From the NCBI RefSeq assembly GCF_964355755.1, contig NC_092680.1:5557001-5621000 (forward strand): 64,000 nt of DNA, given 5' to 3'. The translations under genes were made by a program, and so were the position numbers. The DNA comes from Antedon mediterranea (Eukaryota > Echinodermata > Crinoidea > Comatulida > Antedonidae). The notes under the pieces were generated by a model. It did not search any database and was not told the origin of the DNA. It saw only the letters and a program-made list of their open reading frames with translations. Shown in pieces: positions 1,014 through 39,419 of this stretch; position 1 is the first letter of the stretch; the number at the start of each line of letters is the position of its first letter.

Positions 1014-2294
1014 ATGGTATATTTGTTTGTTATTCGGTGGTTGTTAATGTTGGTTTATTGCAGCTGGTTTGTTGATGCTCGTACCACTATACATCCTACT
1101 GAAATCCACGCGTTGGTTGGAGATAATGCTACAATTGAATGCAGTACTAGTAGAACGCCGTCAGATACGACGATATGGTGGTGGTTTAAAACATTTAGTC
1201 ACTCAACTATACAAATAGCGATTGAGGAAACATTTGTCGATGTCAGATATGAATTAAACATTGATGACGATAGAAGGAAGAGTACACTGACAATATTAAA
1301 TGTTACAGTGGAGCATGGTCACGTTCAATATTATTGTCAATATGGAACTGTGTCAACAATGAATGCTACACTAATTATTACAGGAACAAAATTAGATTTA
1401 CAATATCCAGAATGTCAATCTGATAACAGTGTCGCCAATACAGAGAAAAAAATTACACTAACATGCAGTGCAATTGGTGGCGATCCAAGACCATTATTAC
1501 AGTGGTATACAGATGGCGAAAGGGTTACAGAACAAATTCAAAGTTATTGCGACTGTGATGGTATATCTTATATTTCTATGTTGACGCATGTGCTGATTGC
1601 TAAATATGAGTCGGCAATATTTACATGTAAAGCAGAAGGTATAGCAGCAACTGTTGACCAAAGTTGTTCCATAACACCAGCAATTCCACCAACGGTCATT
1701 ATCATTGCAAACACAACCACTTTTGCAGATGGCGACTCTTTAGAATTCACATGTACGGTAATGACCCCTTGGAACATTACAAATTATATTTGGACGATTG
1801 ATAACCAGTTACTCACTTTGAGTAGATTCAGGTATAGAATGAAAAACGACGGAAGTGTTCTTACAATATTTGATCTAGATCAAACTCATTACAACATCAG
1901 ATGTAACGTAACCACTGCATCTGGATTACTTGGTAGTGACGATGTTGAAATTACCTATGTAGGCCTAGATGAAATGGATAATGATTCAAACAATTTAACA
2001 CTGACTCTATGTCTTTCACTTGGTATGTTTTTAGTTGGATTTATCATGGGTAGTCTGGTTACATTTCGGAAAAACCTGAAATTTTTCTGTGTGAATGAAC
2101 CTCAGTCTGAATCAAAACCACCTGCTGAAAATACTCATCTAAGCTTAAGTTCTTCTGTTGATAAACCTTACTATCAGGAAACAATCATTTCGTCTGAACA
2201 GATTGTTTGCTCCGAAACTGATTATTCAGAACTAACTCCAACGACTCCTTCAATATACAGCGAATTAAACGAACTGAAGGTGCAGAAGAAGTGA
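1014..2294 (+). CDS. Three-Ig-domain transmembrane receptor, short ITAM-like tail (receptor 1)
   Basis: The product is a 426-residue single-pass type I membrane protein in one exon. Residues 1-22 form a hydrophobic signal peptide. Ig1 (V-like) has C43, the WWWF tryptophans and C108 in YYC. Ig2 has C151 and C205 plus an outer pair, C134 and C218, conserved across the family, and the signature CSAxGGxPRPxLQWY. Ig3 has C247 and C297. The transmembrane helix is about residues 328-350. The tail ends with TDYSELTPTTPSIYSEL. The tyrosines Y404 and Y415 give YxxL-x7-YxxL (ITAM spacing), and SIYSEL alone is a canonical ITIM. Many N-glycosylation sites occur. The start follows AAAGCAAG and aligns with its paralogs. 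It is probably a cell-surface recognition receptor; the ligand is unknown. An AATAAA lies at 2628-2633. Confidence 0.9.
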   Translation: MVYLFVIRWLLMLVYCSWFVDARTTIHPTEIHALVGDNATIECSTSRTPSDTTIWWWFKTFSHSTIQIAIEETFVDVRYELNIDDDRRKSTLTILNVTVEHGHVQYYCQYGTVSTMNATLIITGTKLDLQYPECQSDNSVANTEKKITLTCSAIGGDPRPLLQWYTDGERVTEQIQSYCDCDGISYISMLTHVLIAKYESAIFTCKAEGIAATVDQSCSITPAIPPTVIIIANTTTFADGDSLEFTCTVMTPWNITNYIWTIDNQLLTLSRFRYRMKNDGSVLTIFDLDQTHYNIRCNVTTASGLLGSDDVEITYVGLDEMDNDSNNLTLTLCLSLGMFLVGFIMGSLVTFRKNLKFFCVNEPQSESKPPAENTHLSLSSSVDKPYYQETIISSEQIVCSETDYSELTPTTPSIYSELNELKVQKK

Positions 2295-9754: not shown

Positions 9755-11018
9755 ATGGTATACTCTTACGTTGTTTGATGTTGGTTAATGTTGATTTATT
9801 ACAGTTTGTTTGTTAATACTCAAATGCCTACAATATATCCTACTGAAATCCACTTGTTGGTTGGAGATAAGGCTACCTTTGAATGCAGTATTAGTTCGCC
9901 GTCAGAGATGAGATGGCAGTGGTTTAAAACATTCAGAAGCGTTATAGTTTTAGCGCATGAGGGAGAGATTTCCAATTCCAGATATGAATTCAACATTGAC
10001 AACGATAGAAAGAAGAGTACACTAACAATATTAAATAGCACAGTGGAAGATAGTCAATTTAAATATTACTGTCAACAGGGATCGGTATCGATGAATGTCA
10101 CACTCATCGTTATCATAGGAACAAAGTTAGATTCAAAATATCCAGCGTGTCAATCTGAAAACAGTATTGTCAATACGGATAAAACACTTACAATGACATG
10201 CAGTGCAAATGGTGGCGATCCAATACCAGTATTACAAAATGGTACAGAAACGGTAAAAAGGTTACAGAACAGGATCAAAGTTCTGAAAATGAATTATCTT
10301 ATTTTGCTGTTTTAAGCCGTGTGTTGACTGTTGATGATGAGACGGCAAAATACACATGTAGAGCAGAAGGAGTAGCAGCAACTGTTAACCAAAGCTGTTC
10401 CATAACACCAGCAATTCCACCAACGGTTATAATCATTACAGCATATTTTGCTGTTGGCGAATCTTTAGAATTCACGTGTAAGGTAATGACCCCTTGGAAC
10501 ATCACAAATTATATTTGGACGATTGATAACCAGTTAGTCACTTTGAATAGATTTAGGTATAGCATGAACAACGACGGGAGTGTTCTGACAATACTTTATT
10601 TAGATCAAACTCATTACAACATCAGATGTAACGTAACTACTGCATCTGGATTAGTTGGTAGTGACGATGTTGAAATTAACTATGTAGACCTAGATGAAAT
10701 TGATGATGATGCAAACAATTTAACACTAGCTCTATGTCTTTCAGTTGCTACGTTTTCTGTTGGATTTATCATGGGTATTCTGGTTACATTTTGGAAAACC
10801 TTTAAATCTTTTTGTGTAAATAAACCTCAGCCTGAATCAAACAACCAGCTGAAAATACAAATCTAGGCTTAAGTTCTTCTGTTGATAAACCTTACTATCA
10901 GGAGACAATTATTTCGTCTGAACAGATTGTTTCCTCAGAAACTGATTATTCAGAACTAACTCCAACGACTCCTTCAATATACAGCGAATTAAACGAACCG
11001 AAGGTGCAGAAGAAGTGA
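9755..11018 (+). pseudogene. Three-Ig receptor with ITAM-like tail, three lesions (receptor 3)
   Basis: Alignment with receptors 1 and 5 gives a start at 9755 (MVYSYVV). The next codon is TGA (9776-9778) where the paralog has CGA, a CpG-type transition. Ig1 is then open from the ATG at 9788. A 2-base insertion in the LQWY codons of Ig2 (about 10234-10240, ACAAAATGG for ACAATGG) moves the frame. Ig2, Ig3 and the helix continue to 10866 in the new frame. A 1-base deletion near 10840 (ATCAAACAACC for ATCAAAACAACC) then shifts into TAG. The ITAM-like tail is still encoded out of frame down to 11018. All three lesions are small, so the copy is young. Confidence 0.85.
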
Positions 11019-13150: not shown

Positions 13151-14425
13151 ATGTTATATGATTACGTTCTTCGATGGGGCTTAGTGTTGATGTATTACAA
13201 TTTGTTAGTTGATGGTCTTACCACAATACATCCTACTGAAATGCAAGTGTTGGTGGGAGATAATGCTACCTTTGAATGCAGCACTAGTGGTATTCGAGAT
13301 ACGACGAGATGGTGGTGGTTTAAAACATCCAGTCACGATATTACATTAATAGCAAATGAGGAAGGATATTTCGATGTCAGATATAAATTAAATATTGACG
13401 TTGATAGAAGGAAAAGTACACTGACAATATTAAATATCACAGTTGAGGATGGCAAAGCTCAATATTACTGTCAACAGGGATCGGTATCAATGAATGCCAC
13501 ACTCATCGTTATCACAGGAACAAAGTTAGACACAACATATCCAGAATGTCAATCTGATAACAGTGTCGTCAATACAAAGAAAACACTTACACTGACATGC
13601 AGTGCAAGTGGTGGCAATCCAAGGCCATTATTACAATGGTACAGAAACGGTACAAAGGTTACAGAACAGGATCAAAATCAAAATTCGGAAAATGAATTAT
13701 CATATTCTGCTGTTTTGAGCCGCTTGTTGACTGTTGATGATGAGACGGCAATATTTACATGTAAAGCAGAAGGTATAGCAGCAACTGTCAACCAAAGTTG
13801 TTCCATAAAACCAGCAATTCCACCAACGGTCATTATCATTGCAAACACAACATATTTTGCAGATGGCGACTCTTTAGATTTCACGTGTAAGGTAATGACC
13901 CCTTGGAACATTACACATTTTATTTGGATGATTGATAACCAGTTAGTCACTTTGAGCACATCCAGTAAAAACGACGGGAGTGTCCTTACAATATTTGATC
14001 TCGATCAAACTTATAACATTATTAGATGTAACGTAACCACTGCATCTGGATTAGTTGGTAATGACGATGTTGAAATTAACTATGTAGGCCTAGATAAAAT
14101 GGATGATGACTCAACAGCTACCAATTTAACACTGGCTCTATGTCTTTCAGTTGCTACGTTTTTAGTTGGATTTATCATTGGTAGTCTGGTAACATTTCGG
14201 AAAACCCGTAAATCTCACTGTGTAAATGAACCTCAGCCTGAATCAAAACAACCTGCTGAAAATACAAATCTAGGCTTAAGTTCTTCTGTTGATAAACCTT
14301 ATTATCATGAGACAATCATTTCGTCTGAACAGATTGTTTCCTCGGAAACTGATTATTCAGAACTAACTCCAACGACTCCTTCAATATACAGCGAATTAAA
14401 TGAACCGAAGGTGCAGAAGAAGTGA
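13151..14425 (+). CDS. Three-Ig-domain transmembrane receptor, short ITAM-like tail (receptor 5)
   Basis: This is an intact 424-residue paralog of receptor 1. The signal peptide begins MLYDYVLRWGLVLMYYNLLV. Ig1 (RWWWFK, YYCQQG), Ig2 (CSASGGNPRPLLQWYRNG with the extra cysteine pair) and Ig3 (TPWNITHFIW) follow. The helix TLALCLSVATFLVGFIIGSL leads to a basic RKTRK stop-transfer. The tail carries YYHETI and TDYSELTPTTPSIYSEL, with Y402 and Y413 at YxxL-x7-YxxL spacing. The ATG is aligned to its paralogs but lies in a different leader (ACGGAATATG). It shares long near-identical stretches with pseudogene receptor 3, so gene conversion or recent duplication is likely. Surface expression and signalling are inferred from the architecture only. 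Confidence 0.9.
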   Translation: MLYDYVLRWGLVLMYYNLLVDGLTTIHPTEMQVLVGDNATFECSTSGIRDTTRWWWFKTSSHDITLIANEEGYFDVRYKLNIDVDRRKSTLTILNITVEDGKAQYYCQQGSVSMNATLIVITGTKLDTTYPECQSDNSVVNTKKTLTLTCSASGGNPRPLLQWYRNGTKVTEQDQNQNSENELSYSAVLSRLLTVDDETAIFTCKAEGIAATVNQSCSIKPAIPPTVIIIANTTYFADGDSLDFTCKVMTPWNITHFIWMIDNQLVTLSTSSKNDGSVLTIFDLDQTYNIIRCNVTTASGLVGNDDVEINYVGLDKMDDDSTATNLTLALCLSVATFLVGFIIGSLVTFRKTRKSHCVNEPQPESKQPAENTNLGLSSSVDKPYYHETIISSEQIVSSETDYSELTPTTPSIYSELNEPKVQKK

Positions 14426-16679: not shown

Positions 16680-18206
16680 ATGGTATACTCTTACCTTGTT
16701 CGATGTTGGTTAATGTTGATTTATTACAGTTCCTTTGTTAATACTCAGATGAAACCTACAATACATCCTACTGAAATTCAAGTGTTGGTGGGAGATAATG
16801 CTATTTTTGAATGCAGTACTAGTAGTACACCGTCAGATGAGAAGTGGTGGTGGTGGTTTAAAGTATTTAGTCACTCTACTATAACAATAGCGAATGAACA
16901 AGGGTTTAGTAATACCAAATATGAGTTAAACATTGATGACGACAGAAAGAAGAGTACACTGACAATATTAAATATTACAGAGGAGGATGGTGAGGTTCAA
17001 TATTACTGTCAATATGGAATTATATCAACGAATGCCACACTCATTGCTATCACAGGAACAAAATTAGACTCAAAGTATCCTCAGTGCCAATCTGATAACA
17101 GTGTAGTCAATACTAATAGCAATCTTACCCTGACATGCAGTGCAAGCGGTGGCAATCCTAGACCAGAATTACAATGGTACAAAAACGGTAACAAGGTTAC
17201 AGAACAAGATAACGTTCCGAGCTCTCTCGATGAATCTTATTCTGTTGAAGAGTTGACTTATTTATTAACTTCTGAAGATGAAAGGGCTATATTTACCTGC
17301 AATGCAGAGGGTGTAGCAGCAACTGTCAATCAAAATTGTTCCATAACGCTCACAATTCCACCGACGGTCACTATCATTACAAACACCACATCCTTTGCTG
17401 TTGGAGACTCATTAGAACTTACATGTACCGTAATGAGCCCGTGGAATATAACTTTATATACATGGAATTATGGTGATCAGCCAGTTAAGCAAAGTACAAA
17501 GTTCAAACTAAACAGTGACAATACTGAATTAACTATATTAAATTTACAATCAGAAGATGATGAGAAAGAAGTAGAATGTACAGCTGTGACGTCATCTGGA
17601 TTGACTGGTAATGATTCTGTAATAATTACAATATATGATTCGAAGGAGGAGGAGGAGAAGAAAAATAGCACACTGTTAATAATACTGATAGTAGCTGGAG
17701 CTGTAGTTTTGATACTATTAGTATGTCTTGCGATGTGCATACTATGTCAAAATCGAAAACGGAAAGGGCGAAGAGAAAATCGAAATAAAAACGTAACTTC
17801 AAGCTACTATGATAATGTGCTAACGGAACAAGCAACTTCCATTCATTCGTATGAAAGGCGTATAGATATAACTGCTAGAGATGAGAATGAAGGAACAGTG
17901 AGCTACGTAAATACTTTAGACACTTTTGGAAGTAGGCCTAGTGGTACGTTCGTTGGCTTTGATAAAGACCAGGAGGGAACTGCGACAAATGAAGATGATA
18001 TTGATGCTTTGTATGCACAACCGGTAAAATCAAAAGCAAGCGTTGCAGGCCTACCAACAGATTTTGGAGAATTATATGCAAAACCAATGAAAGGAATAAA
18101 AAGTGAAGTTAGTAACCCTAATGAGGAAGTAGAAGATTTTGGAGAACTTTACGCAAAACCAAATAAAAGCAAAACAGTTCATTTGAACACAATGACGAGG
18201 AAGTAA
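16680..18206 (+). CDS. Three-Ig-domain transmembrane receptor with YAxP-repeat tail (receptor 6)
   Basis: The product has 508 residues in one exon: signal peptide MVYSYLVRCWLMLIYYSSFV, then Ig1 (WWWWFK, YYCQYG), Ig2 (CSASGGNPRPELQWYKNG) and Ig3 (SPWNITLYTW). The helix is LLIILIVAGAVVLILLVCLA, with a basic RKRKGRR stop-transfer. The tail has YYDNV and YVNT (YxN, Grb2-SH2-like) and three YAxP motifs: DALYAQPVK, GELYAKPMK and GELYAKPNK. YxxP motifs in series are the hallmark of docking proteins such as p130Cas that bind Crk/Nck SH2 domains. This role is inferred. The end (LNTMTRK) is out of frame with the repeat consensus because one A is missing in the HAKHN codons. Twenty bases after the stop the next upstream module starts, so the normal 3' flank is lost. 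Confidence 0.88.
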   Translation: MVYSYLVRCWLMLIYYSSFVNTQMKPTIHPTEIQVLVGDNAIFECSTSSTPSDEKWWWWFKVFSHSTITIANEQGFSNTKYELNIDDDRKKSTLTILNITEEDGEVQYYCQYGIISTNATLIAITGTKLDSKYPQCQSDNSVVNTNSNLTLTCSASGGNPRPELQWYKNGNKVTEQDNVPSSLDESYSVEELTYLLTSEDERAIFTCNAEGVAATVNQNCSITLTIPPTVTIITNTTSFAVGDSLELTCTVMSPWNITLYTWNYGDQPVKQSTKFKLNSDNTELTILNLQSEDDEKEVECTAVTSSGLTGNDSVIITIYDSKEEEEKKNSTLLIILIVAGAVVLILLVCLAMCILCQNRKRKGRRENRNKNVTSSYYDNVLTEQATSIHSYERRIDITARDENEGTVSYVNTLDTFGSRPSGTFVGFDKDQEGTATNEDDIDALYAQPVKSKASVAGLPTDFGELYAKPMKGIKSEVSNPNEEVEDFGELYAKPNKSKTVHLNTMTRK

Positions 18207-18432: not shown

Positions 18433-19570
18433 AATGAACCTGAAATGGATTTTCGATTTTCAAGAAATTCACACATGTTATTTAAATGTATCAAATTAAC
18501 ACAAACCCATACAAATAAAAACAAAATGTATAGTATTTTGAGTAAAAATGAAATTTTAAGATACCATGGTAAATTAGCGAAAATTACTCACGCCATTGCA
18601 ATATATTATTTCAACGGCCGTCGGAAGCCCCTATATTCACGACGTCACATATACACACGATGATATCGAGAGCGTGTATGCCGCCCGATAGTCAGTGAAT
18701 GATCGACGGCCTGGAAAGATACCCGAAGCGTTGACACTAATACTAATTTATTCAATATCTAATGTTGTTGAAATATAGGTCCCTAAAATGTACTTCGTTT
18801 GTTCTAAAACCCGAATTTAGAAGGCCTACCTCCCAAACCTTTACTAGGCCTAACTAGGCTAGGCCCCCAATCCAGCGGAGTCGATCCACTACCCACATCA
18901 TGCGGCGAGGCTCCGTTTCATGTGCATCCAAGGACCAAAGCGATATCAACAACTTGCTGCGCTCATTGTCAAGCCAAAGTAAAATATGAATAAAATTCGT
19001 TTTCGAACTGCCTGATTCGTGACAAATAAATTATCATCTCATATTACTAATTTAATTCTGCTAAACTAAAAACTAAAGAAACTAACTAACACATTTTAGC
19101 AGTATAAATTACGAACGATATACAAAATACACGAACGGAAAATATGGATACGCATCATTGCGCACGGAGCTGTATCCCGGACAACGTTGCCAGGCCAACT
19201 TCGGTATTGCCAGAAAAAAACCGTTGATTTTAAGATTTTAAATCGTCATTTACTTGATAAATAACCGTTTATACGGTAATAATTTTATCTAAAAAAATTC
19301 TAAATACGTTTCTGCAAATGCACAAGCATTTTTTAGAAAATACTCCATAGATTTCAAGAGTTATAGCCAAAAAACTGCAAATTGTCCATTGGAGGGATAG
19401 GAATATATTCGCAAAGTGACGTCACCCGCGAATTTTTTTGATTTTCAAATAGGGCTTTCCTCAAAAGGGCCAATTTATATTTTGTAACAATATACATTCT
19501 ATCAACACCTAATAGCCCCCAAAACATCATTCTAAAATGAAAAAAATCGAAAATCCATTTCAGGTCCATT
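18433..19570. mobile_element. 1.14-kb non-autonomous element with TTAA target duplication
   Basis: The left end is AATGAACCTGAAATGGATTT and the right end, reversed, is AATGGACCTGAAATGGATTT. The inverted match extends about 28 bases with one mismatch. TTAA flanks both sides (18429-18432 and 19571-19574). The paralogous empty site at about 9780 and 16707 (TTGGTTAATGTTGATTTATT) has a single TTAA. Exact TTAA duplication is typical of piggyBac-type transposition, although the termini are not the usual CCY...GGG. There is no transposase ORF. The interior includes a GC-richer stretch (about 18600-18960) unlike its surroundings. Confidence 0.8.
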
Positions 19571-21015
19571 TTAATGTTGATTTATTACAGTTCGTTTGTT
19601 ATTACTCAGATGCCTACAATATATCCTACTGAAATCAAATCGTGGGTTGGAGATAAAGCTACCTTTGAATGCAGCACTAGTGATATTTCTTTAAATATGA
19701 CAAAATTGAGGTGGTTTAAAACATTCAATCAAATGGCTACACAAATAGCGATTGATGAAGGATTTATAAATGTCAGATATGAATTAATCATTGATGGATA
19801 TAAGAGTACATTGACAATAATAAATATCACAGTAGAGGATGGTAAATTTCAATATTCCTGTGAATATGGTTCTGTATCATCAATGACTGCTATACTCATA
19901 ATCATTAATGGAACTAAGTTAGACTCAAGGTATCCTGAGTGTCAATCTGATAACAGTGTAGTCAATACCGAAAAAAAACTTAAAATGACATGCAGTGCAA
20001 GTGGTGGCGATCCAATGCCATTGTTAAAATGGTATAGAAACGGCAACAATGTTACAGAACAGGACCAATCTCAAAGTTCTGTAGATGACTTATCTTATTT
20101 TGCTGTGTTGAACCATTTGTTGACTGCTGATGATGAGTCTGCAATTTTTACCTGCAAAGCAGATGGTGTAGCAGCAACTGTTGACCAAAGTTGTTCCATA
20201 AAGTTAGAAATTCCACCGATGGTCACTATTATTACAAACACAACTTTTGTTGCTGGGAGCTCATTAGAATTCACCTGTAAAGTAATGACTCCGTGGAATA
20301 TTACCACTTACATATGGAAGTATGGTGATCAACTAGTTGTTCCTAGTACAAAGTTCAAACTAAACAGTGACAATACTGAATTAACTATATCAAATTTACA
20401 ATCAGAAGATGACAAGAAAGTAGTAGAATGTACAGCTATGACGTCATCTGGATTGAATGGTAATGATTCTGTAATAATTTCAATATATGATTCGAATGAT
20501 CCGAATGAGGAGCAGGAAAAAAGCACACTGTTAATAATACTGGTAGTAGCTGGAGCTGTAGTTTTGATACTGTTGGTATGTCTTGCGATGTGCATACTAT
20601 GTCAAAATCGAAAAAGGAAAGGGCAAACAGAAAATCGAAATCAAAACGTTACTTCAAGCTACTATGAGAATGTGCTAAACAAAAATGAAACTGGTGATTT
20701 GGAACTAGCAACTTCCATTCACTCGTATGAAAGGCGTATAGATATAACTGCTAGACATGAGAATGAAGGAACAGTGAGCTACGTAAATGCATCATCATTG
20801 GACACATTTAGAATCAGGCCTAGTGATACGTCTGTTGGCTTTGATAAAGACCAGGAGGGAAATTCGACACATGACGACGATATTGATGCTTTGTATGCAC
20901 AACCGGTAAAATCAAAAGCAAGCGTTGTAGGTCTACAAACAGATTTTGGAGAATTATATGCAAAACCAATGAAAGGAGTAAAAGTGAAGTTAGTAACCCT
21001 AACGAGGAAGTAGAT

Positions 21016-21354
21016 GATTTTGGAGAACTTTACGCCAAACCAAACAAAAGCAAAAAAGTTCACGCGAAACACAATAACGGGGAAGTAACCGATTTTGGAG
21101 AGATTTATGCAAAACCAAATAAAGGTGGAAAAGATCACACAAAACACAATGATGATGAAGTACAGGATTTTGGGGAACTTTACGCAAAACCAAATAAAAG
21201 CAAATCAGTTCACACGAAACACAATAACGAGGAAGTAACCGATTTTGGAGAGCTTTATGCAAAACCAAATAAAGGTGGAAAGGGTCATATGCAACACAAT
21301 AATGACGAAGTACAGGATATGGGTGACCTATATGCAAAACCAATAAAACTTTAA
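21016..21354 (+). repeat. Out-of-frame 75-bp coding repeat array, five YAxP units
   Basis: Units begin at 21016, 21091, 21166, 21241 and 21316, exactly 75 bases apart. Each would encode D(F/M)G(E/D)(L/I)YAKPxK followed by a variable basic spacer ending in EVT or EVQ. Units 1/3 carry NKSK and units 2/4 carry NKGG, so a 150-bp pair was duplicated. The frame is open to the TAA at 21352-21354. It sits in the wrong frame for the upstream CDS because of the lost A near 20980. Confidence 0.85.
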
Positions 21355-23188
21355 AAATAGAAATATATATTTATGCTTCCTTTTCAGATATATTTTAGTT
21401 GGTTGATTTTTTACATTTCTGTGATAAATTTTTTTAGTTTTATATAAAATATAAGCATGTGTAACAACATTGCTAAAAATCTCACTTGGTTCAAATTTTC
21501 AAATAAAACTCTTAATCTTATCATAAAAAATAGATATTACAGGTGTTTTGAAATGTACCGTATTATTCTAGTATTAAAAGTGTTTTTCGATAATTTTGGC
21601 CTAGAGGTTATAGGCCTAATTCTTTGTATATATCAGACGATACATAATTTAAACCTATCATCACAAATCATAAATTTATTCATTTAAGCGAGTGAAGAAG
21701 AAAGTTGTATTTACTTTGCATCAGCTTAAAATAATATTTGAATTTGTCAAATAACCTCAAGATAATGTAGGATATGCTAGACATATTTAGTTTATTAAGC
21801 ATTTATTAACGCAGGGGCATAGAGTGTACGACCATCACATTTCTATTATCGATTTATGTGTACACACAATATCATCATAAAAGTCTGATAGCCTACTGAA
21901 AGAAAGCTATAAATAGTCCATAACTTTTGTATATACGAAACTGAAACCTGTGAATTACAATTTTTTCAGTTCGATTCACTTGATTATCACTATACTTTAT
22001 TTAAGCTTGTAATCTATTACCTATTAAAGATGTATTGCCTCCTGAAAAAATAATTCGTAAACATTTGTTTGTTAAATATGCCATTTGAATGTCCCATAAT
22101 AGTTATCCACTTTGACCAAAAATTTGATTGAAAAAAATGTATTTACCTGAAAAACTGTAATTTAAAGCAAAACTTAAAAGAAATGGTCTGCCAGCCAATG
22201 AATTTTTGGTTTTTTTCTACTGAAGTGATTAACTTTATTAAAACTACAAAATAACCTATTAAAGGTCTCATTTAATTTTTCATGTTTTTGGGGGAAAATA
22301 TACATCTTTAATTAATTAGTTAAGATGAAAAATCAAATTATAGCACACATAAAATAAATGCATTATTGAATTCAGACTTACAACCAACCTCCATTGTAAT
22401 TATATTCAAATCCAAATAAAGGAAGAAGTTAATCATACAAGTAAAGTATCTGATTTGAGAAATTTATTTAAAAATCAAAATTTTACATAAAGGTTCTCGA
22501 CGGTTACTTGGATCTTTGATAGTGCACAACGTAATTGAAGTGTCTAATCAGGATCACATTATAAAAAGTCTTTCAAATATATTTAGGCATTATTATTAAT
22601 GATCAGGGGTTCACTTTGACTTATATAAACTATTATTCTTTTCATTATGTAAACGCAAACGGTGTCAGTTTAATAAATCATTATAACATTTACGTTACTT
22701 ACTGTTTTCTGTGTTGTTTTTGGTTACTTTTTGTACAATCTGAAAAATAATTGAATAGCAAGATTTAATTTTTAACACTGTGTTGTTGAATAATATAAAC
22801 TAGAACATCAAATATTGAAAACTTTGGCACAATCGAGACTCGAATTTGCTCGATATTAAGATGTACAATATACTGTTGATAATATTATTTATGTTGATTT
22901 TTATTGGTTAACAATACTCGGAAATTGACCTTTAAAAAATCGTCTGTACTTTAAACCTAAGTGACTAATTACCGGTAAGACAAGGAAGCTATACAAATTA
23001 GAAAAATGCACGTTTAGATGTTTCTACAAGCAAAACGGATACAATATAATCACAATAAATAACACTTGATAAATAAAATGTGGGAAAATGTTACAAATAT
23101 TTTACTACTAAGAAAACTGCGGCTAGAGGAATATTCTTGTAGCCGGTTACGACTTCGTACTGCTACAGTACTACACTCTTTATTGAAA
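21355..23188. other. Spacer between receptors 7 and 8
   Basis: This is AT-rich. A segment at 22320-22440 is shared with 6540-6665. Small ORFs, including 21457-21687, show no family resemblance. A possible leader for the next gene begins somewhere after about 22900, but no element of the left-clade upstream module is visible. Confidence 0.4.
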
Positions 23189-25075
23189 ATGGAAAGATAT
23201 TGCTGGTGTGGGAAAATTAGATACTTGTTGCTTTGTATTCTCATACAATCTTGTTGCTTTTCTTTTGGATTCAGTAAAATTATAATACATCCAGCAGAAC
23301 AGCATGTTTTTGTCGGAGAAAATGCGATAGTTGAATGCAATAATCATCACGACGAGAAACAGTTTTGGAAATGGTATAGCGTGACCGAAAACAATCTCAA
23401 CGCCAAATTAATATGGAATGAACGTTCGAATGTTATTAAACAAAGTAGGTTTAACTTTGAAGTTTATGAGCAAAGGAAAAGTAGTTCCAGTAGACTGACG
23501 ATAATGGGTGTTACAGTTGCTGACCAGGCTAAATACATCTGTTCACATGGAACTTTTTTAGCAATTGCTAACATTTCAGTGACCATTGGTAAACGATTGG
23601 ACTCCAATTATCCAGAGTGCAAAACACACTTCTCAGAAGTCAACACAGAGAAAAAAGTACAGATGAATTGCACTGCAAATGGCGGCGAACCAAGACCAAC
23701 ATTAAAATGGTACAGAAACGGTGAAAAATTAAAAGAATTTGATAAATTTCTTCTTTCTAATGGGACTTGCACGAATAATGTTGAATATTTATTGACACCT
23801 AATGACGAAGGGGCTGTGTTCACATGTAGAGCAGAAGGCGTGGCAGCAGATGACAATCATAGTTGTTCCATTTCTTTAGAAACTCTTCCAACGGTCACCA
23901 TTATTGCAACTGAAACATCCTTCACTGTTGGTAACTCAATGGGGTTCACATGTATGGTAATGAGCCCGTGGACCGTCACAAGCTACAGGTGGACGTTTGA
24001 TAATCAGATGGTGCAGTTATCAAATCCAGAATTTAGACATGATATTAATAATAGTATGTTAGTTAAATTGAATTTACAAGAAGACGATGAAGCTAAAGAA
24101 ATTGAATGCATTGCGATGACGGCCTCTGGGTTAAATGCTAGCGATTCTGTGCAAATTTCACTTGCACATAAAAGTCGCAAAATTGTTTTAAAAGCGGTTG
24201 CAGGAATAGTAACTCTGTTATGGGCGTGTATTATCATATTGGTTATAATAAAGAGAAATCCAATTAAATCATTAGTTACTAATTGTAATGTATCTACAAG
24301 GGATAGGCATACTGTTATAAATGATGTATCATCACCGTCCAAAACAAGCAGCAACTCTATACATAACGATATAAAATCGCAATCAGAAGAGTCAAATAGT
24401 TTTCCTATTAGAAGAAATATTGAACAAGAAAGTGTTTCATTCGATACTAATGCTGACTCTTTCGACACTTATGGAAGTATTAGTAATTTACAAGATTTGG
24501 ATTCACAGGAACGCGAACATGTTTGTAACAAGCAAACCGTTACAGGAAGTGACGATGTTCTTGACTCTCACGATACGTATGTATCGATGTTAGCCCGACC
24601 TCATAAACCACATAGAAGAACTTATTTCGTTGATTTAAATTCAAAACCAATAAAAGAAACCCACGGAACACCATCAGTTAGTAAGTTAGTCCATTCTAGA
24701 ACTATATATGCAAAACCACTGAATATGACGCAACACCGACGTTCACGATCGTCTGGGACACTGGCCGATTTTAGATATCTTTATGCAAAACCAAATAAAA
24801 AAACTAAACGACACGATAAACCACACTTGTATAGAATACATGGTTATAAAGCTATCTATGCAACGCCTACTATACGTCCCAAATCAATACATCAATCACT
24901 CGAAGATATTTCAAAAGTAACTAAAAATGACTCGTATAAAAACCGGTTGGGATCAGTTGATAATTTGTACGCCCAGCTTAACAGTAATTCCTTAGGAATG
25001 AATTCAGGAATGTATACAGGTTCTGATAAAGGCTTAAATGCACATGATGCAATGTTTCTTTTCTCCAGAATGTGA
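23189..25075 (+). CDS. Divergent three-Ig-domain receptor with long YAxP tail (receptor 8)
   Basis: The start at 23189 (MERYCWCGKIRYLLLCILIQ) gives a good signal peptide. The frame is open to 23066, but the extra 41 residues precede the leader and lack paralog support. The product is 628 residues. Ig1 starts at IIIHPAEQHVFVGENAIVEC and is longer than in its relatives. Ig2 has CTANGGEPRPTLKWYRNG and Ig3 has SPWTVTSYRW. The helix is AVAGIVTLLWACIIILVII. The tail has SFDTYGS, DTYVSMLARP, TIYAKP, YLYAKPNKKTKR, AIYATP and NLYAQL, plus SIHQSLEDI, which recurs in receptors 13 and 14. It links the left-clade ectodomain style (HPxE) with right-clade tail motifs. Confidence 0.88.
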   Translation: MERYCWCGKIRYLLLCILIQSCCFSFGFSKIIIHPAEQHVFVGENAIVECNNHHDEKQFWKWYSVTENNLNAKLIWNERSNVIKQSRFNFEVYEQRKSSSSRLTIMGVTVADQAKYICSHGTFLAIANISVTIGKRLDSNYPECKTHFSEVNTEKKVQMNCTANGGEPRPTLKWYRNGEKLKEFDKFLLSNGTCTNNVEYLLTPNDEGAVFTCRAEGVAADDNHSCSISLETLPTVTIIATETSFTVGNSMGFTCMVMSPWTVTSYRWTFDNQMVQLSNPEFRHDINNSMLVKLNLQEDDEAKEIECIAMTASGLNASDSVQISLAHKSRKIVLKAVAGIVTLLWACIIILVIIKRNPIKSLVTNCNVSTRDRHTVINDVSSPSKTSSNSIHNDIKSQSEESNSFPIRRNIEQESVSFDTNADSFDTYGSISNLQDLDSQEREHVCNKQTVTGSDDVLDSHDTYVSMLARPHKPHRRTYFVDLNSKPIKETHGTPSVSKLVHSRTIYAKPLNMTQHRRSRSSGTLADFRYLYAKPNKKTKRHDKPHLYRIHGYKAIYATPTIRPKSIHQSLEDISKVTKNDSYKNRLGSVDNLYAQLNSNSLGMNSGMYTGSDKGLNAHDAMFLFSRM

Positions 25076-25734
25076 ATGATATCTATAGCATTATGTATTC
25101 AAGCATTGCCTAGACATTTATGATACAGATGTTGATGATACAAACGCCCAACTATCGTTGACCATGAAGAACAGAGATGAACGGTTTGAGTCATTGTGCT
25201 ATAAATAGTATAACATTCTATATCTCTAGAATCTATATTATTTGACACGAGTGATATTAGGAAGACGATTTACACTACAAACGATAATATTTCAATATAA
25301 TTGTTGCAATTTGTAATGTTTAATTATACTAAACGACTGAGTAAATCATTAATTAAGAAAATGCATGATTCTAAAAATATTATAACAATCCTCTTAAGAA
25401 TGTTTAAGCACCATTCTTTATGATAAGTACCGCACACATGAAAGAAGAAGTAACACATTGTGATATATTGTTTGTTATTGAATTTTTATAGATATGTACG
25501 GAAATTGTTGAGATACCTCGGAAACCATGTCTATTTTTCCTATCTATTAAACAACTGCTTTCGGAAGCTATTCACATAAAACCATTCTCGGAAAACATAC
25601 TTTGAAAGCGTAATATGTCACAAGACAATCTATATTATTTATAAATTGGAAGTACAACGGGTATTACGTTTAGAGTAGAAAATCTGTTGCTCAATAAACA
25701 ACATATTACATGTTTTATCTTTTTACTATATCAT
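25076..25734. other. 3' flank of receptor 8 and leader of receptor 9
   Basis: This is AT-rich with no coding signal. The region immediately before the start (GTTTTATCTTTTTACTATATC) lacks the duplicated leader of receptors 10 and 12. Confidence 0.4.
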
Positions 25735-27198
25735 ATGATGGTGTTCACTGGACGTTGCATGTTTATTTTTATTTGCAACATATTGTTCAATTATTGTTTA
25801 ATTCCTGCTGCTGCTGTAACAATACAACCGTTGAAAATAGATGTATTTGCTGGAGAAAATGCTGTATTTGAGTGCAATACTGATACACTAAGTTCTACAT
25901 CCAAATGGATTTGGCTTAAAGGTGCTGCTGATTTAATAGCCAAGGAAGATGTGTTTGTAAGCAATGGATATGAAGTATTGATCAGCAAAAATAGAACAAC
26001 TAGCGTATTGACAATACTTAATACTACCATTGAGGATGAAAGTATATATCATTGTCAACTTAGCTCATCATCGCCAAAAGCCACTCTAACAGTTTTGGAG
26101 GGAGTGAAATTAAACTCACTTTATCCACAGTGTGAATCGGACACCTCGTTACTAAACACAGAAACAACAGTCCAAATAAAATGTTTTGCAGAAGGAGGCA
26201 AACAAAGACCAGAATTACAATGGTACAGAAACGGAATCAAGCTAACAGAACAGACCGATCTCTTCGATGGTAAGTCTTCATACTTTGACGAGTTAACACG
26301 TGTACTGACTATCGATGACGAAGATGCTGTTTTTATGTGTAAAGCAGAAGGACCAGCTGCCGATGAGAATCAGTCATGCCAGCTACAGTTAACGGTTCCC
26401 CCAGACGTTCATATAATCTCTAACGGAACAACTTTTACCTCTGGAGGATCTCTGTTTTTGACTTGTATAACAGTAAGTCCTTGGAAAATAACAGACTATA
26501 TTTGGAAAATTGATAACGAGTTATTAATTTCGAGTAAATTAATGTATTCCATAGAGAACAATGGGAGAAACATTGCAATATTTGATCTCAATCAGAATTA
26601 TAATATCGTAATTGGTTGTGACGTAACCACGTCTTCTGGATTGGTTGGTAACGATACTATTGAGCTAAAGTATGAAGATAAAACGTCTAATGATCACAAT
26701 TATTTAATCCTAATTGTGTGTCTTTCAATTAGTATGTGTTTTGTTGGATTATTGATTGGTAGTTTGGTTAAATTCAGAAAATTGTTTAAATCGTTTAAAT
26801 GTTTTTGTATCATTAATGATAAATGTAATCAGAAACAAAGTATAGTCACATCATGCCCCAAAACAACTAGGTCATCTGATCAGACAATTTCTGGTGAAAT
26901 AGTGTATTCAGGGTTAACTACGTCATCTGATCAGACAATTTCTGGTGAAATAGTGTATTCAGGGTTAAATACGTCATCTGCTCAGACAATTTCTGGTGAA
27001 ATAGTGTATTCAGGGTTAAATACGTCATCTGATCAGACAATTTCTGGTGAAATAGTGTATTCAGGGTTAAATACGTCATCTGATCAGACAATTTCTGGTG
27101 AAATGGTGCATTCAGGGTTAGTTCCAACAACTTCCTCAATATACACCGAACTAAACCAAACAAATGTGAATGAATCACCATACGAATCATTAACTTGA
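25735..27198 (+). CDS. Three-Ig-domain receptor with tandemly repeated ITIMs (receptor 9)
   Basis: The start is set at 25735 (MMVFTGRCMFIFICNILFNY), matching the MMFTG start of the right clade; the frame is open upstream to 25687. The product is about 487 residues: signal peptide, Ig1 (TIQPLKIDVFAGENAVFEC, YHCQL), Ig2 (CFAEGGKQRPELQWYRNG), Ig3 (SPWKITDYIW) and the helix YLILIVCLSISMCFVGLLIG. The tail holds five 17-residue repeats SSDQTISGEIVYSGLNT. The first four have IVYSGL, a perfect ITIM; the fifth has MVHSGL (Tyr to His). SIYTEL, another ITIM, follows. An inhibitory role through SH2 phosphatases is inferred. Because of the His, the ITAM-spaced pair of its relatives is lost here. Confidence 0.9.
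   Translation: MMVFTGRCMFIFICNILFNYCLIPAAAVTIQPLKIDVFAGENAVFECNTDTLSSTSKWIWLKGAADLIAKEDVFVSNGYEVLISKNRTTSVLTILNTTIEDESIYHCQLSSSSPKATLTVLEGVKLNSLYPQCESDTSLLNTETTVQIKCFAEGGKQRPELQWYRNGIKLTEQTDLFDGKSSYFDELTRVLTIDDEDAVFMCKAEGPAADENQSCQLQLTVPPDVHIISNGTTFTSGGSLFLTCITVSPWKITDYIWKIDNELLISSKLMYSIENNGRNIAIFDLNQNYNIVIGCDVTTSSGLVGNDTIELKYEDKTSNDHNYLILIVCLSISMCFVGLLIGSLVKFRKLFKSFKCFCIINDKCNQKQSIVTSCPKTTRSSDQTISGEIVYSGLTTSSDQTISGEIVYSGLNTSSAQTISGEIVYSGLNTSSDQTISGEIVYSGLNTSSDQTISGEMVHSGLVPTTSSIYTELNQTNVNESPYESLT
26869..27123 (+). repeat. 51-bp coding minisatellite, five units, in the receptor 9 tail
   Basis: Units start at 26869, 26920, 26971, 27022 and 27073 and are nearly identical. Unit 3 has CTGCTCAG for CTGATCAG. 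Unit 5 has ATGGTGCAT for ATAGTGTAT, which removes the tyrosine. Near identity implies recent expansion, so copy number may vary between individuals. Confidence 0.95.
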
Positions 27199-28194: not shown

Positions 28195-28548
28195 AAAAGT
28201 GTATTTTACAACGTTTTAGATTGTTCTGCATAAATAAATGCCATTAGAAAAAATAAAATAAACACAACGGGCAAAAGAATTGCATGCATTTGAATAAAAA
28301 TGGAAACACCTCACGACGATTTTACAGTGTGAATTAAGAAGTAAACATTATAGTGTGGAGCGTGTGTTCTACAGTATGCTGTTCAAGTACTACCGTACAC
28401 CAAGACAGACGTAGATCATTGTGGCTTACTGATTGCAGGATATTTTGGAAGGAAACAACTTAAATATTGGAAAAAACAATTGTATATATTTATGTTATTA
28501 CTGGATGTGTACTAGAAGTATGTTTTGATTATACCGTACTAGGACGCC
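28195..28548 (+). promoter_or_regulatory. Right-clade upstream block, duplicated at about 35700-36050
   Basis: The two blocks share TTCTGCATAAATAAATGCCATTAG, GAATTGCATG, GGAGCGTGTGTTCTACAGTATGC, AGACAGACGTAGATCATTG and TACTGGATGTGTACT. Both end at the MM(F/L)T start. This is the leader/promoter of a right-clade subgroup. It has no ISRE/GAS-like composite, unlike the left-clade module. Confidence 0.5.
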
Positions 28549-29813
28549 ATGATGTTCACCGGCCGTTTAATTTGGTTTATATTTCCTGTTGTGTGTAACT
28601 ATTGGTTACTGTCTGAAGCTGGTATCACTATACAACCAATGAATCTTGAAGTATTTGCTGGTGAAAATGCTGTATTTGAGTGCAGTGTTGATACAATAAG
28701 CTCTTCATCCAAGTGGCAATGGTTTAAGGGTGATGATGGCATAATATACAAGGAAGATGTGTTTGTAACATTTGGATATGAAGTAATGATAAGCAACGGC
28801 AGAACAACCAGTTCATTGACAATACTGAATACTACTACTATTGATGATGATGGAGACTCTTATCATTGTATGTTTGGTTCAGTATCACCATTCGCTAGCT
28901 TAGCAGTTATTGAAGGAATGAGGCTAGACTCTATGTATCCGCAGTGTGAAGCTGAAACCTCGTTACTGAACACAGAAACAACAGTCCAAATAACATGTAT
29001 TGCAGAAGGAGGTAAACCAAGACCAGAATTACAATGGTACAGAAACCGAATCAAGCTAACAGAACAGTTTGATCTCTTCGATGGTAAGTCTTCATACTTT
29101 GACGAGTTTTAACACGTGTACTGACCATCGATGACGAAGAGGCAGTGTTTATGTGTAAAGCAGAAGGTCCAACTGCAGATGAGAATCAGTTATGTCAGGT
29201 ACAGTTAAGAGTTCCCCCAGACGTTCACATATTCTCTAATTCAACAGCTTATAAATCAGGAGATCTAGAATTGACTTGTAAAACAATGAGTCCATGGAAA
29301 ATAACGGATTATATTTGAACGATTAATAACGAGTTATTAATTTTTAGTGAATTAAAGTATATCTTAAAGAACGATGGGAGAAACATAGAAATATTTGACG
29401 TCAATCATAATTGTAATATCTTCATTCGTTGTGACGTAACCACGTCTTCTGGATTGGTTGGTAACGATACTATTGAGGTAAAGTATGAAGATAAAACATC
29501 TAATGATTCAAATGACTTACCTATAAGCTTAATTGTGTGTCTTTCATTTTGTATGTTTTTTCTTGGATTGTGTATTGGTATTTTAGTTAAATTCAGCAAA
29601 GTTTTAAAATCAATCAGATCGATTCTCATGAATAAAACTAAATCTGATCAAAATGGATCTGAGAATCACGATACGAGCACTGCTGAACCTTGTTACCAGA
29701 ATACAATTATAGAAAATGATCAGACAATATCTGGTGAAATGACGTATTCAGGGTTAGTTCCAACAACTCCTTCAATATATAGAGAACTAAATCAAATAAA
29801 GGTTAATGAATAA
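28549..29813 (+). pseudogene. Three-Ig receptor with ITAM-like tail, frameshift and nonsense (receptor 10)
   Basis: It starts MMFTGRLIWFIFPVVC. Ig1 and the first half of Ig2 are open. At about 29107-29110 there are two extra T (GAGTTTTAACACG; paralog GAGTTAACACG), producing TAA. In the restored frame the Ig3 tryptophan of DYIW is TGA (29316-29318). The frame then runs on to 29813 with the helix and MTYSGLVPTTPSIYREL. From about 29110 onward the sequence is nearly the same as receptor 11, including the 3' flank, so the lesions arose after that duplication or conversion. Confidence 0.88.
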
Positions 29814-31669: not shown

Positions 31670-32941
31670 ATGATGTTCACTGGCCTTTGTAACGTTATAT
31701 TTGTTTGGTCTATATGTTCTATTGTGTGTAACAACTTATTAGTTTCTGAAGCTGTTACAACAATACAACCATTGACACTTGAAGTATTCGCTGGAGAAAA
31801 TGCTGTATTTGAATGTAACGTTGACACACTTGAACCAATATTCCCTTGGCAATGGTTTAAAGGTAGAGATGTTAGAATAGCACTGGAAGATATGTTTGTA
31901 AAAAATGGATATAGTGTTAGTATCAGTAACAATAGGAGAACCAATGCGTTAACAATATTCAACACTACGCTCAGTCATGGCCAAAGTCAGTATGCTTGTC
32001 AATATGGTTCTGTATCATCATTCGTTAATCTGACAGTATTTGAGATAATGAAGTTAGACTCAACGTATCCAAAGTGTGAGGCAAACATAACGTTGATAAA
32101 CACTTTGAAAACAGTCCAACTAAAATGTAGAGAAAAAGGTAGCAATCCAAGACCAGAATTACAATGGTACAGAAACGGAATCAAGCTAACAGAACGGGTT
32201 GATCTCTTCGATGGTAGTTCTTCTTACTTTGACGAGTTAACACGTGTACTGAATATCGATGACGAAGAGGCAGTGTTTATGTGTAAAGCAGAAGGTCCAG
32301 CTGCAGATGAGAATCAGTTATGTCAGGTACAGTTAAGAGTTCCCCCAGACGTTCACATATTCTCTAATGCAACAGCTTATAAATTCGGAGATCTAGAATT
32401 GACTTGTAAAACAATGAGTCCATGGAAAATAACGGATTATATTTGGACGATTAATAACGAGTTATTAATTTTTAGTGAATTAAAGTATATCTTAAAGAAC
32501 GATGGGAGAAACATAGAAATATTTGACGTCAATCATAATTGTAATATCTTCATTCGTTGTGACGTAACCACGTCTTCTGGATTGGTTGGTAACGATACTA
32601 TTGAGGTAAAGTATGAAGATAAAACATCTAATGATTCAAATGACTTACCTATAAGCTTAATTGTGTTTCTTTCATTTTGTATGTTTTTTCTTGGATTGTT
32701 TATTGGTATTTTAGTTAAATTCAGCAAAGTTTTAAAATCAATCAGATCGATTTTCATGAATAAAACTAAATCTGATCAAAATGGATCTGAGAATCAAGAT
32801 ACGAGCACTGCTGAACCTTCTTACCAGAATACAATCATAGAAAATGATCGGACAATATCTGGTGAAATGACGTATTCAGGGCTAGTCCCAACAACTCCCT
32901 CAATATACACAGAAGTAAATCAAATAAAGGTTAATGAATAA
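31670..32941 (+). CDS. Three-Ig-domain receptor, short ITAM-like tail (receptor 11)
   Basis: This is an intact 423-residue protein. The signal peptide is MMFTGLCNVIFVWSICSIVC, then Ig1 (LEVFAGENAVFEC, WQWFKG, YACQYG), Ig2 (CREKGSNPRPELQWYRNG, MCKAEGPAADENQLC) and Ig3 (SPWKITDYIW). The helix is LPISLIVFLSFCMFFLGLFI. The tail has YQNTI (YxN) and MTYSGLVPTTPSIYTEL, a YxxL-x7-YxxL pair whose second tyrosine is also an ITIM. The Ig2-to-tail part nearly equals pseudogene receptor 10. The SINE directly upstream replaces most of the conserved leader, so expression could differ from its paralogs. Confidence 0.9.
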   Translation: MMFTGLCNVIFVWSICSIVCNNLLVSEAVTTIQPLTLEVFAGENAVFECNVDTLEPIFPWQWFKGRDVRIALEDMFVKNGYSVSISNNRRTNALTIFNTTLSHGQSQYACQYGSVSSFVNLTVFEIMKLDSTYPKCEANITLINTLKTVQLKCREKGSNPRPELQWYRNGIKLTERVDLFDGSSSYFDELTRVLNIDDEEAVFMCKAEGPAADENQLCQVQLRVPPDVHIFSNATAYKFGDLELTCKTMSPWKITDYIWTINNELLIFSELKYILKNDGRNIEIFDVNHNCNIFIRCDVTTSSGLVGNDTIEVKYEDKTSNDSNDLPISLIVFLSFCMFFLGLFIGILVKFSKVLKSIRSIFMNKTKSDQNGSENQDTSTAEPSYQNTIIENDRTISGEMTYSGLVPTTPSIYTEVNQIKVNE

Positions 32942-35699: not shown

Positions 35700-36050
35700 T
35701 GTTAAACAAGTTGAATGCAGGAACTTGTTCTGCATAAATAAATGCCATTAGGAAAATAAAATAAACAAAAATACAAAAGAATTGCATGGATTTAAATAAA
35801 AAATTTAAGAACAACCGATGCATAACGATTTAATGGTGTAAAATAAAAAGTAAACATTTTTGTGCGGAGCGTGTGTTCTACAGTATGCTGTTCAAGTACT
35901 ACACCAAGACAGACGTAGATCATTGTGGCGTACTGATTGCAGGATATTTTGAAATGAAACAACTCAAATATTGAAAAAAATCGTATATATTTATGTTTAT
36001 TACTGGATGTGTACTAAAAGTATGTTTTGATTATACTGTACTGGAATGAC
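35700..36050 (+). promoter_or_regulatory. Right-clade upstream block of receptor 12
   Basis: This is the duplicate of 28195-28548, as listed there. It ends with CTGGAATGAC before the ATG at 36051. Confidence 0.5.
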
Positions 36051-36866
36051 ATGATGCTCACCAGGCGTAAGGTATTTGTTTGGTTTATATTTCCTGTTGT
36101 GTGTAACTACTGCTTAGTTTCTGAAGCTGTTACTACAATACAACTAATGAATCTTGAAGTATTTGCTGGTGAAAATGCTGTATTTGAGTGCAATGGTGAT
36201 ACAATAAGCTCTTCATCCAAGTGGCAATGGTTTAAGGGTGGTGGTATAATAATATACAATGAAGGTGAGTTTGTAGTAAATGGATATGAAATAATGATAA
36301 GCAACAGTAGTAGTAGTATCGGTTGTTCTACTGTTGCTTATCATTACTTCATATCCATTTACTACAAATATATTCACAATATTGAATACTACCATTGAAG
36401 ATGGAAGTGTGTATCATTGCCAACTTGGTTCAGCATCACCAGAAGCCACTTTAACAGTTTTGGGAGTGAAATTAAACTCACTGTATCCGCAGTGTGAAGC
36501 TGACACCTCATTACTGAACACAAACAAAACTGCACAAATAATGTGTAGCGCAAAAGGAGGTTACCCCAGACCAGAATTACAATGGTACAGCAACGGAGTC
36601 AAAGTATCGGAAAATGAAGATTTTTTTTTAATTTTGCTATTGGCATATTGGTTAAATTTAGCAAACTGTTAACACCATTCACATCTTTTTGCATGAATAA
36701 TACTGATTCTGATCAAAATAGTGGAAATCAAGAAATGCGCACTGCTGGACCTTGTTATCAGAATACAATCATAGAAAATGATCAGACAGTATCTGGAGAA
36801 ATGACGTATTCAGGGCTAGTTCCAACAACTCCCTCAATATACACAGAACTAAATAAAATAAAGTAA
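36051..36866 (+). pseudogene. Truncated right-clade receptor with inverted duplication and deletion (receptor 12)
   Basis: It starts MMLTRRKVFVWFIFPVVC and enters Ig1 (LEVFAGENAVFEC, WQWFKG). At 36270-36368 an inverted copy of the local sequence breaks Ig1. Coding similarity then resumes (TILNTTIEDGSVYHCQLGSA) into Ig2 (CSAKGGYPRPELQWYSNG). After SENEDF a deletion jumps straight to FAIGILVKFSK in the helix, removing the rest of Ig2 and all of Ig3. The tail YQNTI and MTYSGLVPTTPSIYTEL remain, in another frame, to the TAA at 36864. It cannot make a receptor. Confidence 0.9.
36270..36368. repeat. 41-bp inverted duplication (hairpin) inside receptor 12
   Basis: The left arm 36270-36310 and right arm 36328-36368 are reverse complements with one mismatch, separated by 17 bases. 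The right arm read in reverse continues into GCAACAGTAGAACAACCGAT, which resembles the paralog sequence AGCAACGGCAGAACAACC, so it is a flipped copy of the normal exon. Confidence 0.9.
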
Positions 36867-38091: not shown

Positions 38092-39419
38092 ATGGTGTTC
38101 ATCGGTTGTTTTAAGCTTTTCTTTGGTCTATATGTCTTATTTCGTCAAACTACTGTTTAACCTCTGAAGCTTTTACCATAATTGAACCACTGAATCTTAC
38201 TGTACTTGCTGGGGAAACCGCTGTATTTCAGTGTAACACTGATCGGGTAGACCAGGCTCTTTGGCAATGGTTTAAAAATCGAAATAAACCAATAGCTGTG
38301 GAAAATGGATATGTATCAGATGAATACATTATGTCGGTTAGTGGAAGAACAAGTGAGTTGATGAAACATAATACTACTACTGAGGATGATCAAAGTCAGT
38401 ATCATTGCCAGTATATTTCTTCCTCGTTATACGCTAATCAAACGGTTATCGAGAAGTTGGACGTTATGTATCCATTATGTGAAACGACTATAACGTCCAT
38501 AAACAGTGATAAAACTGTCTCAATATCATGTAGTGCAAAAGGAGGCAACCCAAGACCAGAATTACAATGGTACAGAAACGGAGTCAAACTATCAAAAAAT
38601 AGCGGTAAGTCCACATACTACGACGTGTTAAAACGTTTATTGACTTATGAAGATGAACAAGCAGTGTTTGTGTGTAAAGCTGAGGGATTGGCTGTTGACG
38701 GAAAACAAACATGTAGTGTGAACTTAAATGTTCGTCCAGAAGTCATAATAACTTACACAACAATTTCTTTCGAGGTTGGAGATTCTCTAGAATTTAAATG
38801 TAGAGTAATGACTCCGTGGAAGATCATAGATTACGTTTGGAAAACCAATAACACGTTGGTGACTACGTCAGGCTATAGTTTTATTCTAACAGATGACAAG
38901 ACAGTGCTCATAATTAATAATTTAAAATCGAGTGACACAGACGTAGAAATAAAATGTCAAGTGACAACGGCATCAGGTCTAACCGGTAGTGATTCAGTAA
39001 CAATTTCACTAAGTGACCGTGAATCAGATTGGTTATTTGTTGTTTTATTTGCTGGAGGAATCATCTTTATGTTTATTTTTATATCAGTATGTCAGAAAAA
39101 ACAAGAGAAAGCATCAGTCGCCACAATACTTGAAACACTTCAAACGCCCAATCAATCAAACGCTGACATACAAAACATTGTTTCCCAAGAAAATCCTACC
39201 TTAACATATGACCAAACAGATGATGAACGTGGGTCATCATTAGTTGCCATCATTAATAGTAGCAGTGAAGAATCGTCAGAAGCCGAAACTGAACGTGTAA
39301 CACAAAGTCCAACGCCTTCGAACGAATCTACAGGGAATCAGACGTCCGACGTTGATGAAGACAGTAGCATTGGCAGCTTTTGTAGTTTCTATAGTTTTGA
39401 TGACGAAGATACCGAATAA
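38092..39419 (+). CDS. Three-Ig-domain receptor with acidic tail; signal peptide out of frame (receptor 13a)
   Basis: The paralog-like leader ATG at 38092 (MVFIGCFKLFF) ends at a TAA (38158-38160). The mature part is open in another frame from about 38120 (NYCLTSEAFTIIEPLNLTVLAGE) to 39419. So the signal peptide is displaced by a small indel near 38110-38140, unless an upstream exon supplies a start. From the first in-frame ATG (38298) 373 residues remain. Ig1 end (YHCQY), Ig2 (CSAKGGNPRPELQWYRNG), Ig3 (TPWKIIDYVW) and the helix WLFVVLFAGGIIFMFIFISV are intact. The tail has TLTYDQ and SIGSFCSFYSFDDED but no YAxP. Call it a gene with a broken start, or a very recent pseudogene. Confidence 0.7.

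Follow-up and report, generated by a model that had tools for sequence, protein, structure and literature searches.

It is reasonably probable, judging from the sequence, that the array in this DNA is a tandem set of paired receptors, in which R1, R5 and R11 activate through an ITAM-type tail on a single chain, the first two Ig domains (D1-D2) have been homogenised across different signalling modules, and R9 is probably an inhibitory variant. The window, that is, the whole stretch of 64,000 nucleotides that was analyzed (C11:5557001-5621000 of an 18-contig, 354-Mb animal assembly in which about eleven contigs are large; GC content 33%), carries a tandem array of single-exon receptors, which we call R1 to R15 as in the original prediction. 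COX1 had no match in the assembly, which therefore probably lacks the mitochondrial sequence. The array receptors are built from a signal peptide, three Ig domains (assigned by Pfam), a transmembrane (TM) helix and a tail, and all features of the array given here lie on the plus strand. In R1 (1014-2294, a single exon with signal peptide and three Ig domains), the TM helix spans 1992-2066 and the tail 2067-2294. The AlphaFold model of R1 contains three beta-domains and a helix, with a pLDDT below 50 for the tail residues 354-426, so the modeled tail is probably disordered. Among solved folds, the receptor ectodomain comes closest to those of nectin-like proteins, SIRP-alpha and SYG-2; the likeness is a family resemblance and nothing more. 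A charged residue was sought in the TM helix of the ITAM-like chains and was absent, suggesting that these chains need no ITAM adaptor; together with the predicted disorder of the tail, this supports the idea of a tail that would signal from a single chain.

The R1 frame ends with ...SETDYSELTPTTPSIYSELNELKVQKK followed by the stop codon, and this end contains the ITAM-like motif ETDYSELTPTTPSIYSEL at 2214-2267 (E-T-D-Y-S-E-L-(TPTTPSI)-Y-S-E-L). The two tyrosine codons are located at 2223-2225 and 2256-2258; the YxxL-x7-YxxL core occupies 2223-2267, and inclusion of the acidic residue at -3 (E-x-x-Y) moves the start to 2214. The motif had been placed at 2216-2260; it is real, but these coordinates are shifted by about 7 nt. 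Searched for with a degenerate DNA pattern, the tyrosine pair turned up at exactly six sites of the window (2223, 10947, 14354, 29745, 32873 and 36807), where shuffles expect 0, and these are the six genes in which it had been reported: R1; psi3 (9755-11015), whose reading frame is broken while its motif is still intact at 10938-10991; the intact receptor R5 (13151-14425; motif 14345-14398); the broken copy psi10 (28543-29813; YSGL-x7-YREL, 29736-29789); the intact receptor R11 (31670-32941; YSGL-x7-YTEV, 32864-32917); and the deleted or broken copy psi12 (36018-36866; YSGL-x7-YTEL, 36798-36851). When the pairs were tested for ITAM spacing (YxxL/I-x6-8(12)-YxxL/I), R1 and R5 passed the strict form with the acidic residue at -3, and R11, whose last half is YTEV, fitted only when V was allowed at the final position and missed the strict form. 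The strict pattern D/E-x2-YxxL/I-x6-8-YxxL/I appeared in 0.1% (R1) and 0.05% (R5) of residue shuffles of each tail, and the relaxed form in 1-3% of tail shuffles. The proposed ITAM spacing is thus upheld by the 7-residue spacer and the acidic -3 residue, with the strict fit limited to two intact genes that diverged recently.

Since hits to a 10-bp satellite, TACTCGGAAC, overwhelmed a genome-wide DNA pattern in which the gap could vary, the tail was searched for as protein instead. This tblastn-type search (E<=10) recovered seven copies of the tail family in the genome, all of them in the array, the seventh being R9. The arrays of this ~10-bp repeat lie near contig ends (C1:41366036-41371074 and C2:40902478-40904818) and are possibly subtelomeric. 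Among the intact members of the R1/R5/R9/R11 tail class, three of four keep both tyrosines, while three of the seven copies are broken. The pair is absent from most of the other intact members (R6, R7, R8, R13, R14 and R15), which have a different tail. Loss of a tyrosine in most intact paralogs had been named as the outcome that would speak against the motif, and the answer depends on the set: the tail class largely retains the pair, whereas it is found in no intact receptor of the array outside this class. In distant single-exon Ig receptors of the genome, an ITAM-spaced pair was found in 3 of 36 tails against 0.9 expected, a suggestive excess. One of these receptors (L051, C7:6412602 region) ends with DNYMDLTTSDVTGASAYMELTPTS, which reads as YxxL-x10-YxxL with an ITIM-like second half, and ITAM-spaced pairs also occur in L026 (YKTL-x9-YQNL) and L053. 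Single-exon Ig receptors whose tails are long and rich in tyrosine form additional clusters at C11:15.85-16.12 Mb, C7:0.03-0.9 Mb and C3:15.1-15.8 Mb, and a PDVYFEPKD tail site is common to many members of the C3 cluster.

SH2 and phosphatase domain searches of the genome gave two tandem-SH2 genes, one of the Syk type and one of the SHP2 type, so the absence of such partners, which would have counted against the prediction, does not hold. The Syk gene (C6, 536-545 kb, minus strand) contains N-SH2, C-SH2 and kinase exons. Its N-SH2 exon matches SYK/ZAP-70 in the PDB with an E-value of 5e-38 (next family, 1e-12) and is followed on its 3' side by C-SH2 pieces and by kinase exons with HRDLAARN, DFG and the AGRWPLKWYAPE segment. 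The SHP2-type gene (C3, 14.097-14.105 Mb) has consecutive N-SH2, C-SH2 and PTP exons with WPDHG, and its C-SH2 exon is closer to SHP2 (E 3.7e-39) than to SHP1 (1.7e-26). The genome also contains SH2 exons that we take, from their familiar signatures, to be Src-, Csk-, PLCgamma-, p85- and Grb2-like. Two further SH2 exons at C5:19081956-19095292 (L037, L038) have an ambiguous PDB match, SHP2 or SYK; the first of them resembles a Shark/HTK16-type N-SH2 and may belong to another kinase able to read ITAMs. The genome also has many tyrosine phosphatase domains in clusters (among them C5:7.6-8.1 Mb, C5:12.0-12.1 Mb and C6:26.3 Mb), apparently an expanded PTP family.

These data bear on an unlikely alternative, in which the YxxL sites would form no ITAM and would serve mainly as trafficking signals for AP-2 endocytosis (YxxPhi), or as Grb2/PLCgamma-type SH2 docking sites of an adhesion receptor. 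YxxL does match YxxPhi, the ectodomain resembles the nectin/SIRP/SYG adhesion folds, and R11 also carries a YQN (Grb2-type) site. However, the spacer of exactly seven residues and both tyrosines are retained on the R1/R5 branch as well as on that of R11, R1 and R5 are acidic at -3, and the genome encodes Syk, all of which speak against this alternative.

The second half of the pair had been described as an ITIM as well. The inner SIYxEL, SIYSEL in R1, does nominally fit S/I/V/LxYxxL/I/V, but 21 of the 65 YxxL/I/V sites (32%) in the 36 distant receptor tails also have S/I/L/V at -2, so roughly one such site in three shows the overlap by default. The human textbook activators CD79A and DAP12 behave in the same way: when the pattern was run on their known motifs, one half of each fitted it. 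Moreover, SHP proteins normally engage two sites, which a lone ITIM does not offer, and the R1 tail has one nominal ITIM. The ITIM label on the inner site is therefore nearly uninformative; that R1 gives both outputs from its one chain is possible, with no pointer to it in the sequence. The stated departure from the usual vertebrate split between receptor and adaptor did not hold up either, since vertebrates have single-chain ITAM receptors too, FcgammaRIIA being one. One-receptor plasticity is described for the catfish IpLITR1.1b (PMC4810170), and ITAM/ITIM receptors of invertebrates are published (PMC12065747, PMC11999971).

A multi-ITIM tail is found elsewhere in the tail class, in R9 (25645-27198), which falls in the R1/R5/R11 class by D3-TM-tail and has His in place of the first Tyr of the terminal pair (27109-27111). 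A 51-bp tandem repeat (26871-27120; 4.9 copies, 97% matches) multiplies the YSGL site, with ITIM-like GEIVYSGL repeats at 26893, 26944, 26995 and 27046; the SSDQTISGEIVYSGLNT repeats thereby provide four IVYSGL sites, in addition to SIYTEL and SPYESL. By pattern match, the R9 tail thus contains two or more ITIMs, and R9 appears to be a version of the R1/R5/R11 module that carries an ITIM array. We consider it quite unlikely that one chain gives both outputs, with Syk on the pair activating and SHP on the inner SIYxEL inhibiting according to the strength of phosphorylation. The fit of the inner site, the SHP2-type phosphatase encoded in the genome, and the inhibitory ITAM signalling and one-receptor plasticity published for other receptors (PMC4810170) are consistent with it, but a third of the YxxL/I/V sites in receptor tails of this genome fit the ITIM pattern, as do canonical activators, the inner site is single, and R9 acquired its multi-ITIM tail independently, losing the pair.

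The original prediction had the motif kept across paralogs with diverged ectodomains, and here two comparisons must be separated. First, the motifs of R1, R5 and psi3 are identical over 57 nt except for one silent change. This near-identity reflects recent shared ancestry or conversion, because the R1-R5 dS is 0.12 in the tail against 0.37 in D1D2 and psi3 is a pseudogene; for the same reasons, we ruled out the argument that motif conservation proves selection in these three genes. Second, selection can be addressed between R1/R5 and R11, where it is weakly indicated: the motif (19 codons) has a dS of 0.62 and a dN of 0.27, and the whole tail of R1 and R11 a dS of 0.90 and a dN of 0.48, these NG86 values being based on few codons and partly saturated. 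The motif dN/dS between the two branches is about 0.4 on few codons, so the dN/dS check, uninformative within R1/R5/psi3, suggests from sequence at most a mild constraint on the tail between R1 and R11. That this class of tail belongs to a lineage in decay, largely turned into pseudogenes and with a motif inherited without function, is very unlikely, since the broken copies, the pseudogene with an identical motif and the Tyr lost in R9 stand against three long intact ORFs, an intact R9 with a recent in-frame repeat expansion, and this motif dN/dS, few codons notwithstanding.

The alternative tail module of the array consists of DLYAKP repeats (YxxP) and PxxP stretches, YxxP being the site type that Crk-type SH2 domains bind. 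R6 (16680-18206) and R7 (19541-21013, truncated by a frameshift) combine an R1/R5-like D1D2 with a YAKP-class tail, which in R6 is joined to D3 and TM of the same class, and R15 (45551-47527) combines an R9/R11-like D1D2 with the D3-TM-tail of the YAKP class. R14 (41415-43469) belongs to the YAKP class with a PxxP-rich tail, R13 (38115-39419) falls in it by D3-TM and has a short tail without YAKP, and the divergent R8 (23063-25075) has YAKP sites. Beyond the early end of R7 at 21013, a 75-bp repeat array (window 20887-21354) continues in another frame with more DFGELYAKPNK units. Exons of death-domain and TIR-domain genes lie directly 3' of the receptor array (window 57726-63079).

The trees of the two receptor halves disagree as follows: the D1D2 tree groups the genes by array position (R1, R2, R5, R6, R7 versus R9, R11, R13, R14, R15; support 100/100), whereas the D3-TM tree groups them by tail class (R1, R5, R9, R11 versus R2, R6, R7, R13, R14, R15; support 99/99). 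AU tests rejected monophyly of the tail class in D1D2 (p 5e-34) and the position groups in D3-TM (R1, R2, R5, R6, R7, p 0.015; R9, R11, R15, p 0.00016), p-values that are somewhat optimistic because the groups were chosen once initial trees had been inspected. The same step is seen in dS, which between R1 and R6 is 0.50 in D1D2, 1.16 in D3 and saturated in TM, and between R9 and R15 rises from 0.57 in D1D2 to 1.13. By codon-window identity, R1 switches within Ig domain 3 at about 1740-1800 (CTVMTPWNITNYIW; BLAST ends 1780-1802), from R6-like (YAKP tail) on the 5' side to R11-like on the 3' side, and R11 switches at the homologous site, about 32405-32476 (CKTMSPWKITDYIW), from R15-like to R1-like. 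The two subclusters thus share the D3 position at which identity changes. As the D1D2 divergence between subclusters (R1-R11 dS, 1.23) greatly exceeds the divergence inside each, the exchange very probably took place in the two separately. Adjacent genes therefore have similar ligand-binding domains and different signalling modules, as seen in the trees, AU tests, dS step and switch site. This pattern, with D1-D2 homogenised between neighbours that carry different modules and the signalling module kept apart, is what characterises paired receptors. The partners share only 56-70% identity in D1D2, from which we infer that receptors alike in this region may have a ligand in common.

The ITAM-type reading would work as follows. 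Upon ligand clustering, a Src-family kinase would phosphorylate both tyrosines of R1, R5 and perhaps R11, the tandem SH2 domains of Syk would dock on the phosphorylated pair, and Syk would signal onward. The signalling module comprises the TM helix, the tail and, of Ig domain 3, the distal two thirds, and is one of two old modules of the array, the second being the YAKP (YxxP) repeats, through which the YAKP class may recruit adaptors. Exchange of D1-D2 between neighbours would wire similar ectodomains to different outputs, and receptors with different modules would compete for a similar ligand. R9, in which repeat expansion produced four IVYSGL sites and the ITAM pair is gone, probably recruits the SHP2-type phosphatase and inhibits. 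More tentatively, it is possible that a non-chordate, non-cnidarian animal has here an independent NK-style paired-receptor complex, with recurrent conversion of the recognition domains, a fixed switch point in D3, and ITAM, ITIM-array and YxxP outputs in cis on similar ectodomains.

If signalling follows the motifs, the array would be another independent invertebrate case of ITAM/ITIM-type wiring, in which one docking surface may feed different outputs, including the textbook ITAM-type 'on' switch. It displays in its sequence how paired receptors persist: exchange makes the recognition domains more alike, and the signalling modules remain separate. Whether one recombination route has given rise repeatedly to pairs of activating and inhibitory receptors could thereby be put to a direct test in an animal that lacks adaptive immunity.

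Several known systems share parts of this layout. One is the Botryllus fuhc locus, which has ITIM and hemITAM tails; the Botryllus fester co-receptors (FcoR) are likewise an invertebrate IgSF multigene cluster, and the tail that each related chain bears is of ITIM or of activating (hemITAM) type (PMC12065747). As described, however, FcoR proteins have V-Ig, sushi and C2-Ig domains and swap their motifs by splicing, whereas the array consists of single-exon three-Ig genes with full ITAM spacing and, as the alternative, a YAKP-repeat module that recombination within D3 has attached. The Alr allorecognition complex of Hydractinia, from a different phylum and likened here by its description, is an IgSF array with ITAM/ITIM tails and signalling partners in the genome (as cited in PMC12065747). 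The oyster CgIgIT2 is a mollusc single-chain Ig receptor with an ITAM, but it has five Ig domains and the available text describes no paired module (PMC11999971). In vertebrates, the ectodomains of CD300A and CD300C are kept similar by gene conversion while their tails are opposite in signal (PMC12447643); that pair joins an ITIM receptor to an activating partner, unlike the array with its YxxP-repeat alternative and ITAM in cis. The catfish IpLITR 1.1b has several tyrosine motifs on one chain and a context-dependent output (PMC4810170), but is a vertebrate receptor, experimentally tested, with different motifs. Amphioxus has an ITIM-type inhibitory LRR receptor (PMC8211107). The tail motif itself is thus of a kind already known, ITAM/ITIM in invertebrate receptors having been published; what is new is the trio of ITAM, ITIM array and YxxP in cis, with exchange inside D3.
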